Source: Alphaproteobacteria bacterium
Lineage (GTDB): Bacteria > Pseudomonadota > Alphaproteobacteria > Acetobacterales > Acetobacteraceae
Length of the DNA stretch: 64,000 nucleotides
Assembly (NCBI GenBank): GCA_020850755.1
Contig: JADZEB010000016.1
Span: forward strand, 248,001 to 312,000
Direction: 5' to 3'
The notes below the pieces were generated by a model. The model was not told where the DNA came from. It made no database searches and was given only the letters and a program-made list of their open reading frames with translations. The translations under genes were made by a program, and so were the position numbers. This document shows, one piece after another, positions 58,921 through 63,801 of the stretch (positions within the stretch are counted from its first letter, which is position 1; every line of letters starts with the position of its first letter).

Positions 58921-60012
58921 CTAGCGCGCGCTCCGATTGAGCTCGTAGGTGAAGCCCACCCCGACGCCGTTGAACATCAGGATTTGGCGCAGGACCTGAT
59001 CGACCAGCCGGCCGGTGCGCGCCAGTTGCGTCGGCGGCACATAGACCACCGAGTTGGGCGGCAGGATCAGTTCCTCGTGCATCTGTGCGCGCTCGAGGAT
59101 GTTCAGAAGGTTCACCGTGCGCACCCGCATGGTGCTGTCGGCCCCGACATAGACCACGCGAACGCCGTCGATCGCGCCTGTCGGCATCACGCCGCCGGCG
59201 GCCGCGACGGCAAGCAGTGTCGTGTATGGCCCGCCCGCCGGCACCTGTCCCGGCCGTGGCACCTCCCCGAACACGAAAACGCGCTCGCGCGTGGGTTCGG
59301 GCATGATCACGTCGGGATCAAAGCCGATCCCGCGCTCGCGATAGCGAGCGGCCATGGATTCACGGAGCTGCGCCACCGTCAGGCCGGCTGCGCGCACGCG
59401 ACCCGCCCCCGGCAAGGTGACCGTGCCATCGGACAGGATCGCAAGCTTGCGTGACCGCCCCTCGGCTGCCGACTGGATGGCCTGGCCGAGATCGTCTTCG
59501 GAGGAGGCAGCACCGGGCGAAAGGGTGACGGTGATCTGCGGGTTGGTCATGATATCCGCATAGAGCCGCCGCAGCGACGCCGCCAGGCCCTCGGGGGTCT
59601 GTCCCACGGCCTGCACGGTCCCCTTCACCGGGACCCCGATGCGGCCGTCGGGACGGACGATGACGGTCCGGTTGAAGGTCGGATCGAAACCGAAATCGAG
59701 TTGCAGCTCGTCCCCGGAGCGTATGCGGTAGCTTCGCGCCGTCGGCCTGTCCGAGCGCAGGAACAGGACCTCGATCACATCCCCGGGCGCCAAGCGGGTC
59801 GCGTCGACCCCTTCCCGCAATGCCGCGACCACGCGGACACCGGCGTCGCGCTGGGCTTCCACCGGCATTTCGTCGAAGAACATGCTGCTGCCGTCGCTTG
59901 CCACCTCCCCGGTCCGGCTGGCAGTGCAGGCCGGCAAACCGAGAGCGACGACAGAGAGCAATCCCAAAACGCCCGCCCTTTGCCGCCACGGCCGAGAGCC
60001 GGCGCGCGGCAT
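58921..60012 (-). CDS. polysaccharide export lipoprotein (Wza/KpsD-like OPX)
   Basis: A 363-residue outer-membrane export protein. A lipoprotein signal with lipobox LPAC lies about 29 residues after the ATG at 60012. The Poly_export domain follows (LAPGDVIEVLFL, YRIRSGDELQLDFGFD, VRPDGRIGVPVKGTVQAVG), with repeated SLBB-like segments (ILSDGTVTLPGAGRVRAAGLT; VFVFGEVPRPGQVPAGGPYT). Two ATGs at 60078 and 60096 are in frame but would place the Cys over 50 residues in, too far for a lipoprotein signal. It forms the channel through which exopolysaccharide leaves, and is divergent from the priming glycosyltransferase gene. Confidence 0.87.
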   Translation of the reverse strand: MPRAGSRPWRQRAGVLGLLSVVALGLPACTASRTGEVASDGSSMFFDEMPVEAQRDAGVRVVAALREGVDATRLAPGDVIEVLFLRSDRPTARSYRIRSGDELQLDFGFDPTFNRTVIVRPDGRIGVPVKGTVQAVGQTPEGLAASLRRLYADIMTNPQITVTLSPGAASSEDDLGQAIQSAAEGRSRKLAILSDGTVTLPGAGRVRAAGLTVAQLRESMAARYRERGIGFDPDVIMPEPTRERVFVFGEVPRPGQVPAGGPYTTLLAVAAAGGVMPTGAIDGVRVVYVGADSTMRVRTVNLLNILERAQMHEELILPPNSVVYVPPTQLARTGRLVDQVLRQILMFNGVGVGFTYELNRSAR

Positions 60013-60193
60013 TGCCAACGTCTCGCGCAACGAGACCGCGCTATCGAAGTGCGATTCTGTTGCGGGCGAGGTGCCCATGGCCGTATTAGATATCATGTCT
60101 GTCCACCACCCAGCATACGGCCCTCGTCGGCGGTTGGGGCCTCGCTGCCAGTGACCGTATCAGACCCGGACCGGAGTCGCGGCAAGTCCCTCA

Positions 60194-60204
60194 TGCAAAT
60201 TGCA
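60194..60204. promoter_or_regulatory. palindromic operator-like site
   Basis: TGCAA (60194-60198), one base, TTGCA (60200-60204). This perfect 11-bp palindrome ends three bases before the -35 hexamer, a usual position for an activator or repressor dimer. Confidence 0.4.
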
Positions 60205-60207
60205 ATC

Positions 60208-60237
60208 TTGACGTGGCCGGCGCAGAAAATTTACGAT
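60208..60237 (+). promoter_or_regulatory. sigma70-like promoter for the exopolysaccharide operon
   Basis: TTGACG at 60208-60213 matches the -35 consensus in 5 of 6 places, and TACGAT at 60232-60237 matches the -10 in 4 of 6, at 18-bp spacing. The region is AT-richer than its surroundings. Transcription would start near 60244, leaving a leader of about 165 nt before the ATG at 60408. Confidence 0.5.
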
Positions 60238-60248
60238 TTTGGAACCAA

Positions 60249-60322
60249 GTGGGCTGGGCCGCGTTCCATTGTTGCGCCCGGACCCGCGACAAAAGTCCCA
60301 GGGGAACGCGCGTCCAGCCCAC
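60249..60322 (+). ncRNA. long structured leader hairpin (candidate cis-regulatory RNA)
   Basis: Bases 60249-60259 pair with 60312-60322 (11 bp, one G-U). After a single bulged C at 60311, bases 60260-60267 pair with 60303-60310 (8 bp). Then 60269-60276 pairs with 60285-60292 (8 bp, one G-U) around an 8-base loop, with a 10-base bulge on the right side. In all 27 pairs in 74 bases, beginning a few bases after the predicted transcription start. No U-run follows, so it is not a simple terminator. Function is inferred from position only. Confidence 0.6.
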
Positions 60323-60338
60323 ACGCGATGCGTGAATG

Positions 60339-60349
60339 GGCGGTGGCAT
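60339..60349 (+). promoter_or_regulatory. ops-like element in the exopolysaccharide leader
   Basis: GGCGGTGGCAT differs at one defined position from the ops consensus GGCGGTAGnnT that recruits RfaH-type antiterminators to long surface-polysaccharide operons in gammaproteobacteria. It lies 58 bases before the start codon. The sequence is GC-rich and a chance match in this genome is quite possible. Confidence 0.25.
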
Positions 60350-60407
60350 TGCTATTGCTTACCGATACCCTGCCACTGGATTGGGATCAGGCCTTGGGAG
60401 ACGGATC

Positions 60408-61964
60408 ATGAACGATCCGGGGTATTTCGGCGCGGGCCGAGAGGTTGCGGCACGCGCACCGGACGATGTCGCATCGCGGCAACCCGCGGGCGACACTTCG
60501 CCTGATTCCACCACCATCGCGGGTGCAGATCCTGGATCGCCCGAACGCTGGACCCTGACGCTCATTGCCGGCATCGTCCGCTTGGCCGAAGCGTCGATCA
60601 TCATTGCCGCCGGCATGCTGTGCTTCGCCCTCTATATCGGCGTGCTCCGCGGCGGTTTCGACCAGTGGGAACGCTACGCCGCGACCGTCTTCGCCGGCAC
60701 CGTCATCGCCCTGGTCGTGTTCGAGGTCGCAAGCCTCTACACACCCAAGCGGCTGGAGAATGGCGCCGGCACGCTCGGCCGCCTCTTGGCGGCGTGGGGC
60801 GTGGCGTTCCTCTCCGTGGTCGCGCTTGGCTATCTCCTCAAGCTGTCGATCGACTTCTCGCGCGGCTGGGCCCTGCTCTGGTTCGTGTCCAGCGCGGCGG
60901 GCCTTGCCGGGTTGCGCATGGGCCTTGCCAATTGGCTTGGGTCCAGCACCGGGCAGGCGACGCTTTGCCGCCGCCTCGCGATCGTTGGCGCCGGCCCGAT
61001 CTCGGAACGACTGCTCCACCACCTCGCCCAGCCCGAGATGGCCGGCAAGTTCGAGATCGTCGGCCTGTTCGATGATCGCAGCCCGGACCGACACGGCCCC
61101 GACGGGGCGGCCGGCCAGAAGATCGCCGGCACCACTGCCGACCTCACGCGCCTGATCGAACGGGCGCGCGTCGATGTCGTGGCGATCGCGCTACCCTGGA
61201 GCGCGGCCACCCGCATCCGCGAGATATCGGCCTCGTTGCGCGACCTGCCCGTGGACATCTGGCTGGCGCCGGATACGGCCCTGTTCGAGTTCCAGCAGCC
61301 CGAATTGCGCCGCATCGGCGATCTACCCGCGCTCGAGGTGCATTCGGCGCCGCTCGCCGACTGGCGCGGCGTGCTGAAGCGGGCCGAGGATCTGGTCCTT
61401 GGCACGGCGATCCTGCTGGTGGCGGCCCCCTTCATGCTGCTGGCCGCGCTAGCCATCAAGCTCGACTCGCGCGGGCCGGTCCTGTTCCGCCAGCGCCGCT
61501 TCGGCTTCAACAACCAGCCGATCACCGTGTTCAAGTTCCGCACCATGCAGGTGGAACAGTGCGATGCCTCGGGCGCGCAGCGCACGCAGAAGAACGATCC
61601 GCGCGTCACGCGCGTCGGGCGCTTCCTGCGTCGTGGGTCGATCGACGAGTTGCCGCAGCTCCTCAACGTGCTGCGCGGCGAGATGTCGCTGGTCGGCCCG
61701 CGCGCGCACCCGATCGCGATGAAGGTGGGCGACCGCTACTACTACGAGGCGGTGGCGCGATACGGCGCGCGCCATCGCATGAAGCCCGGCATTACTGGCT
61801 GGGCCCAGATCAACGGCTATCGCGGCGAGGTGGATACGATGGAGAAGGCCGAGCGCCGGCTGGAGCTCGACCTGCACTACATCGACAACTGGTCGGTCGT
61901 GTTCGACCTGTGGATCATCTTGCGCACGATCCTGGGGGGATTCACTGGCAAGGCTGCCTATTAG
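60408..61964 (+). CDS. undecaprenyl-phosphate hexose-1-phosphate transferase (priming glycosyltransferase, WcaJ/PssY-like)
   Basis: The 518-residue protein has four hydrophobic segments in its first half (about 48-75, 84-107, 126-148 and 155-175), then a nucleotide-binding-like CoA-binding domain (RRLAIVGAGPISERLL), a re-entrant membrane segment (VLGTAILLVAAPFMLLAALAI) and the C-terminal bacterial sugar-transferase domain with KFRTM, DELPQLLNVLRGEMSLVGPR and KPGITGWAQI. It starts exopolysaccharide repeat units by loading sugar-1-phosphate on undecaprenyl phosphate. ATG at 60408 has GGGAG upstream. First gene after the structured leader. Confidence 0.93.
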   Translation: MNDPGYFGAGREVAARAPDDVASRQPAGDTSPDSTTIAGADPGSPERWTLTLIAGIVRLAEASIIIAAGMLCFALYIGVLRGGFDQWERYAATVFAGTVIALVVFEVASLYTPKRLENGAGTLGRLLAAWGVAFLSVVALGYLLKLSIDFSRGWALLWFVSSAAGLAGLRMGLANWLGSSTGQATLCRRLAIVGAGPISERLLHHLAQPEMAGKFEIVGLFDDRSPDRHGPDGAAGQKIAGTTADLTRLIERARVDVVAIALPWSAATRIREISASLRDLPVDIWLAPDTALFEFQQPELRRIGDLPALEVHSAPLADWRGVLKRAEDLVLGTAILLVAAPFMLLAALAIKLDSRGPVLFRQRRFGFNNQPITVFKFRTMQVEQCDASGAQRTQKNDPRVTRVGRFLRRGSIDELPQLLNVLRGEMSLVGPRAHPIAMKVGDRYYYEAVARYGARHRMKPGITGWAQINGYRGEVDTMEKAERRLELDLHYIDNWSVVFDLWIILRTILGGFTGKAAY

Positions 61965-62038: not shown

Positions 62039-62797
62039 GTGAAAGTCTTGATTCTCGCGGGCGGCAAGGGCACCCGTGCCTACCCGTACACGGAGTATTT
62101 GCCGAAGCCCATGATGCCGATCGGCGGCAAGCCCGTGATCACGCGGGTGATGGAGATCTTCGCCCGCCAGGGGATCAAGGAATTCGTGGTCTCGCTCGGC
62201 TATCGCAAGGAGGTGATCACCGACTATTTCGAGGGCCGGTCGAGCCCGTGGAAGGTCGATCTGATCGATACCGGCGAGAACACCGATACGGGCGGGCGCA
62301 TCTACAAGGCGCGCCACCTGCTCGGCGACCGCTTCATGGCCACCTACACAGATGGCCTGTGCGACGTCCCGCTGGCCAAGCTGCTGGCATTCCACGAGAA
62401 GCGGGTGAAGCTCGGCGGACTTGCCACCATCACCTCGGTGCCGCTCGTCTCCCAGTATGGTACCATCGAGGCGAATGACGACGGCCAGATTGTCGCATTC
62501 CGCGAGAAGCCGACCCTGTACGAACACTGGATCAATGCCGGCTTCTTCGTTATGGAGAAGGCGATCTTCAGGAACTGGCAGGGCGAGAACCTGGAACGCG
62601 AGGTTTTCCCGGCGCTGCAGAAGAAAGGTAGGCTCTATACCTACCAGCACCGGGGCTTCTTCAAGTCCATGGACACCTACAAGGACCAGCAGGAGATCGA
62701 GACACTGTGCGAGACCGGCAAGATGCCGTGGCTGGTTCCCGTCGCCGGGAAGGGTAGCAAGCCGCGCACGAAACCCAAGGCTGCGCGGAGGACATGA
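62039..62797 (+). CDS. glucose-1-phosphate cytidylyltransferase (RfbF-like)
   Basis: The 252-residue nucleotidyltransferase starts with GTG at 62039 (AAGGGG 9 bases upstream). [23 protein letters not shown] is the nucleotide-binding loop, and [39 protein letters not shown] and [10 protein letters not shown] match CDP-glucose-forming enzymes rather than dTDP- or UDP-specific ones. It makes CDP-glucose from CTP and glucose-1-phosphate. The tail of about 15 basic residues ([15 protein letters not shown]) is extra. Its stop overlaps the next start. Confidence 0.85.
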
Positions 62798-63801
62798 TGA
62801 CCAAGAACTCGCATTTCTGGCGCGACCGGCGTGTGCTGGTCACCGGCTCGTCGGGATTCCTCGGCGGCTATGTGGTGGCTCAGCTCCGCGCCTCGGGCGC
62901 GTCCGTTGTCGGCCTGGTGCGGGACCTGCAGCCGGCGCTCGATCCGGCCCGCACCCGCTCCCGCCAGCCGGACTTCATCGTGCCCGGCGCGCTGGAGGAT
63001 TTCGACACCGTCATGCGCGCGGTTTCGGAATACGAGGTGGACACCGTGTTCCACCTTGCCGCGCAACCGATCGTGGGCATCGCCAATCGCGACCCGCGCG
63101 GCACCTTCGAGGCCAATATCCGCGGCACCTGGAACCTTCTCGACGCATGCCGGCTTGCCAAGACCGTGACGCGCATTCTGGTCGCCTCCTCGGACAAGGC
63201 CTATGGCGTGCAGACGGTGCTGCCCTATGACGAGCACATGCCGCTCCAGGGCTGCCATCCCTACGACGTGTCGAAAAGCTGCGCCGACCTGATCTCGCAC
63301 ACCTACTACAAGACCTATGGTCTGCCGGTCTGCGTGACGCGGGCGGCGAACTTCTATGGCGGCGGCGACCTGAACTGGAACCGCATCGTCCCGGGCACCA
63401 TACGTTCCGTCCTGCAGGGCGAGCGTCCGGTGCTGCGCTCCGACGGCACCATGGTGCGTGACTACATATTCGTGAAGGACGTGGCCGACGCCTACCTGCA
63501 CCTGGCCGAGCGCATGGACGACAAGGCCCTGCATGGCGAGGCGTTCAACTTCAGCGTCGAGATCAAGCTCACCGTTCTCGAACTGACCAGGCTTATCCTG
63601 AAGCTGATGGGTCGCGAGGACCTCCAGCCGGTGATCCTCAATCAAGCCAGCGGCGAGATCCCCGAGCAGTACCTGTCGGCGGCCAAGGCACGTCGCGTCT
63701 TGAACTGGTCCCCGCGCTACGGACTGGAGGAAGGTCTCCGTGAAACCATCGCCTGGTATCGCGAATACCTCAGCGAGCGGCAGGTTGCGGCGGCCGAGTA
63801 G
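62794..63801 (+). CDS. NAD-dependent sugar nucleotide dehydratase/epimerase (CDP-glucose 4,6-dehydratase-like)
   Basis: A 335-residue extended [18 protein letters not shown] for [27 protein letters not shown], catalytic Tyr and Lys in [11 protein letters not shown], and [19 protein letters not shown]. The SDKAYG and PYxxSKxCAD patterns and its pairing with a CDP-glucose synthase suggest CDP-glucose 4,6-dehydratase (RfbG), giving a 4-keto-6-deoxy sugar; another epimerase is possible. ATG at 62794 overlaps the previous gene by 4 bp, with a second ATG one codon later. Confidence 0.82.

Follow-up and report, generated by a model that had tools for sequence, protein, structure and literature searches.

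The 64,000-nucleotide stretch of DNA analysed here (the window) carries a strong hairpin at 60249-60322 on the plus strand, in the 5'-UTR of an exopolysaccharide operon. Tentatively, we regard it as a lineage-specific hairpin of the operon mRNA that most likely would act as a 5'-end stabiliser, a reading built on a predicted transcription start and on analogy. We infer the start itself, that the hairpin forms in vivo, and any influence it has on mRNA half-life. Nothing shows that the hairpin is conserved or represents a new type of regulator.

The hairpin is a real feature of the sequence. Its outer helix (60249-60259/60312-60322) has 11 bp with one G-U pair at 60258/60313, its middle helix (60260-60267/60303-60310) has 8 bp that are Watson-Crick throughout, and its apical helix (60269-60276/60285-60292) has 8 bp with one U-G pair at 60273/60288. 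A single bulged C at 60311 lies between the outer and middle helices, and the apical loop CCCGGACC comprises 8 nt (60277-60284). The fold given in the preliminary description, i.e., 11 + 8 + 8 bp with a bulged C and two G-U pairs, was thereby recovered at the same positions. Because the internal loop between the second and third helices is strongly asymmetric, with 1 nt (60268) facing 10 nt (60293-60302), the hairpin is not one continuous 27-bp rod. The MFE is -44.9 kcal/mol (z = -4.86), none of 200 shuffles was equally stable, the centroid is identical to the MFE structure, and the hairpin is retained when the whole 182-nt leader is folded. This stability favors a stabiliser. The earlier argument that the G-U pairs make sense in plus-strand RNA alone is weak, since there are just two of them and the minus strand of the region folds almost as well (-42.5 kcal/mol). 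A pseudoknot between GGAC of the apical loop and GUCC at 60295-60298 was rejected by reasoning on geometry, as an 8-bp helix is too long to be bridged by 2 nt.

The gene downstream, at 60408..61964 on the plus strand, is the first of its cluster and encodes a priming sugar-phosphate transferase of 518 aa with CoA_binding_3 and Bac_transf domains (PF13727, 2e-29; PF02397, 4e-64). It is followed on the same strand by a nucleotidyltransferase gene (62042..62797, PF00483), from its context probably a glucose-1-phosphate cytidylyltransferase, and by a gene for an NAD-dependent sugar dehydratase/epimerase (62794..63801, PF01370 and PF16363), which by the same token is probably a CDP-glucose 4,6-dehydratase. 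Behind these lie genes for Wzz, an FkbM methyltransferase, Wzx, an MBOAT acyltransferase and a family-2 glycosyltransferase. On the minus strand, a Wza-type polysaccharide export gene (58921..60096, PF02563, 1e-26) diverges from the transferase gene, an arrangement seen among the homologous loci in the window alone. The transferase, the cluster genes and the divergent export gene together make the term exopolysaccharide operon sound, and the assignment to a priming-transferase operon made in the preliminary description holds.

A predicted sigma-70-type promoter, TTGACG-18-TACGAT (60208..60237, plus strand), is the only promoter-like site in 59900-60600, where 0.1 would be expected. For this reason the transcription start is predicted near 60244, about 5 nt before the hairpin, which agrees with the distance proposed earlier and favors the stabiliser reading. 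Directly before the -35 element, at 60192-60202, lies the palindrome TGCAA-A-TTGCA, whose centre is some 47 bp ahead of the predicted start; an activator of the exopolysaccharide promoter might bind there.

If the start is placed correctly, the message would begin with about 5 unpaired nucleotides followed by a nearly continuous 19-bp stem, and conversion of the 5' end would be hindered. A stem so near the 5' end would also hinder 5'-dependent attack of RNase E on the long operon message, while the ribosome site, about 75 nt downstream of the stem, would stay free to work independently. The RppH of E. coli accepts ends with a few unpaired nucleotides. The Bacillus RppH enzyme likewise accepts such ends, and 5' hairpins impede RppH (PMC3997798). 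Protection may therefore be poor if the unpaired tail is truly at least 5 nt long. Stem-loops at the 5' end that raise mRNA stability have been described for ompA, recA of Acinetobacter and vacA (PMC7509114).

As the preliminary description stated, the hairpin lacks a U-run: none follows the outer stem on either strand, and the sequence behind it is ACGCGATGCG. The hairpin is therefore not an intrinsic terminator, and a scan gave no plus-strand terminator site there; the lack of a U-run fits a stabiliser. A strong G+C-rich stem in a divergent region where both strands fold could also suggest an attenuator, or an element of the divergent promoter region that acts at the DNA level as operator or cruciform. 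We saw no alternative antiterminator fold, and an operator would not be expected to have its arms 35 nt apart, as those of the outer stem are, so that this group of explanations, terminator included, appears very improbable.

How unusual the stem is depends on the measure. By raw MFE the hairpin ranks only about 25th in the window, because coding DNA of 68% G+C folds well, and an earlier, permissive stem score was uninformative. With a strict stem score that allows no mismatches and only 1-nt bulges, the hairpin ties for the best in the 64-kb window; of 60 random 64-kb sequences matched to it in dinucleotide composition, 13 held an equally good stem somewhere. Scaled from this count, the chance of such a stem in a given 312-bp intergenic region is roughly 1 in 1,000. 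Among 70 other upstream regions of the same genome, mostly intergenic, two had z values of -4.26 or lower; one of these coincides with a copy of a dispersed palindrome. Several non-coding stems in about 440 kb of stretches of the genome, sampled as background, outscore the hairpin, and a good part of them are such palindromes. The hairpin is thus unusual (top ~3%), not unique, and within the genome's own range. The claim of more order than chance stands for a single intergenic region and loses force against the genome's other upstream regions, two of which are as structured; this last count also speaks against a stabiliser.

The main rival explanation is that the hairpin has no function: the inverted repeat would have arisen by chance or by mutation in a polysaccharide locus that was rearranged, and would be tolerated in its leader. 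The share of equally structured upstream regions (~3%) and the 13 of 60 matching random windows are in its favor. Against it stand the chance of about 1 in 1,000 for this intergenic region, the position of the stem directly behind the sole promoter-like site, and a middle helix of 8 bp with neither mismatch nor G-U pair. What was found in relatives supports this rival, since the hairpin is known from one genome only and orthologous operons have other leaders. We consider it a possible explanation, though a doubtful one.

Comparison with relatives gave the hairpin no homologue. Rfam had no matches at the gathering threshold over the window and none at E <= 5 over 60050-60520, so that the Rfam search proposed with the preliminary description identified no family. 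Neither BLAST nor a covariance model found a second copy in the hairpin's own genome, a search of plasmid DNA gave no match, and when the leader was compared by BLAST with 397 family genomes (396 besides its own), only chance-level matches appeared. The weak matches in family genomes cluster on the 5' arm of the hairpin; the four that were inspected have at most ~30 nt in common with it and form no such stem. A covariance model built on the structure given above found only the original copy at a convincing score in 60 relatives and only that copy in the 397 family genomes, where strict filters could have missed weak matches; 56 homologous loci contained no homologue of the hairpin either.

Over the matched segments, transferase homologues share 34-57% identity. 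The nearest orthologous operons, in genomes G236, G296 and G170, have the same next gene and 43-56% protein identity, and their leaders do not align with that of the window and have no sequence or fold in common with it. Over 98 transferase loci from named genomes and from the family, all in plus orientation, no comparable upstream stem occurred (best other score 39 vs 44); the nearest minus-oriented loci were read separately. The strongest other hairpins upstream of transferase homologues differ in place and sequence. With no homologue to align and unrelated nearest leaders, covariation cannot be tested. The conservation expected in the preliminary description was thus not found in the 397 family genomes and 56 loci, which weighs against a stabiliser; this is an absence of relatives and not a disproof, the genus being represented by this genome alone among the genomes compared. 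Its proposal of a cis-regulatory leader retains the operon and the place behind a predicted start, but not support from conservation.

Palindromic repeats are dispersed in this genome, and the hairpin might be a diverged copy of one (REP/MITE-like): 38 exact copies of one palindrome exist, and one hairpin arm was matched near a repeat at 3 mismatches. The alignment score between hairpin and repeat, however, was reached in 95% of shuffles, a profile search with the repeat misses the hairpin, and the arm has about as many matches as a control. Descent from this repeat, the CTAG-bounded element described below, is thus refuted at the sequence level and retains next to no probability.

The repeat is more striking than the hairpin itself. 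It is a dispersed element of about 130 bp made of two palindromes, GTCCGATCTGGTGGAACCGC-AGGG-CGGTTCCACCAGATCGGAC and GGGCACGACTTCCGTTCGGC...GCCGAACGGAACGTGCCC, the first of which has at least 38 copies in the genome (38 exact). Copies of the element lie, for example, at L138:3059-3184, L138:15224-15349, L145:6376-6501 and L154:9855-9980 of the genome (G000), and others in L177-L196. All 20 copies that were read have CTAG at their left end, and 16 of the 20 also have it at the right end (strict motif). In 17 of 20 copies, the left TAG is in phase with an open frame that comes from upstream; the right TAG is so on the other strand in 14 of 16, although only 123 bases of flank are available on that side and another frame is open there almost as frequently. 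Judged from these ends, the element is probably a small MITE-like mobile element whose insertion site is CTAG, where the stop codons of convergent genes overlap by 4 bases.

The leader also contains sequences that could act on translation. The transferase gene has a Shine-Dalgarno motif, GGGAG, at 60396..60400, and a 6-bp hairpin, CGGATC(ATGAAC)GATCCG, at 60402..60419 carries the start codon in its loop (both plus strand). The 10-nt internal-loop strand AAGUCCCAGG (60293..60302, plus strand) may be able to pair with the Shine-Dalgarno region CCUUGGGA. One may envisage a translational switch that keeps the transferase gene repressed through base pairing of the Shine-Dalgarno region CCUUGGGAG with either UCCCAGG of the internal loop or CCAA of the 5' tail; some factor or condition would then refold the leader and lift the repression. 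The duplex of 60293-60302 with the ribosome site is worth -10.3 kcal/mol, the 5' tail is paired with the ribosome-site region in the MFE structure of the 182-nt leader, and the placement of the start codon in a stem-loop is in line with such control. However, the duplex has a chance probability of 0.05 with shuffled loops and 0.03 with random targets, before allowing for choices and multiple looks, the 5'-tail pairing is missing from the centroid, and conservation is lacking. Opening the ribosome site is predicted to cost virtually the same with and without the hairpin (16.41 vs 16.43 kcal/mol), which makes a simple translational block unlikely; this unchanged cost of 16.4 kcal/mol fits a stabiliser and not a translational switch. 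We therefore regard a switch as unlikely.

A 27-codon open frame (MREWAVALLLLTDTLPLDWDQALGDGS) at 60328-60411 ends in an ATGA in which it overlaps the start of the transferase gene at 60408. It has no evident Shine-Dalgarno sequence but could encode a translationally coupled leader peptide. No tRNA or tmRNA was found.

The hairpin might instead be a docking site for a processivity or antitermination factor of the RfaH/LoaP kind, or for another RNA-binding protein. NusG paralogues typically target long polysaccharide operons. Two papers (PMC7593976, PMC12691694) also present such operons as typical targets, and the operon in the window is of this kind. The sequence GGCGGTGGCATT at 60339 agrees with the ops element GGCGGTAGCGT in 9 of 11 bases, but this match is worthless because the 64-kb window contains 48 sites at least as good. 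A NusG paralogue was not found in the 96%-complete assembly, where housekeeping NusG is missing too: searches with PF02357 and TIGR00922 revealed no NusG of any kind, while control searches were positive. The missing NusG is most likely an assembly gap. We consider a docking role quite improbable. It seems about as improbable that the hairpin belongs to a lineage-specific leader RNA, of a class not yet in Rfam, that controls the exopolysaccharide operon either by contact between its internal loop and the Shine-Dalgarno region or by binding a dedicated factor.

A 5'-end stabiliser thus remains our preferred, tentative reading. If true, it would add one more 5' hairpin that governs how quickly the long message of a polysaccharide operon decays. 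A hairpin with no relatives opens no general question; it does offer a defined target in this organism.

Among known systems, intrinsic terminators have a similarly G+C-rich stem-loop, from which the hairpin differs by the lack of a U-run and by its location before the first gene. The EAR element of the B. subtilis eps operon is likewise an RNA structure in an exopolysaccharide operon, whereas the hairpin has no Rfam match; EAR is larger than the hairpin and lies within its operon. The JUMPStart/ops leaders of enterobacteria, on which RfaH acts, are also structured leaders of polysaccharide operons. In contrast to these, the leader studied here has no significant ops element and no sequence kinship with them, and no NusG paralogue was found. 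The stabilising 5' stem-loops of ompA and papA in E. coli and of the aprE leader in B. subtilis have shorter stems than the hairpin, which differs from them by its predicted 5-nt unpaired tail and by having no relatives. As in these stabilisers, a strong stem would stand only a few nucleotides from the (here predicted) 5' end of the message, and it lies well upstream of the ribosome site.
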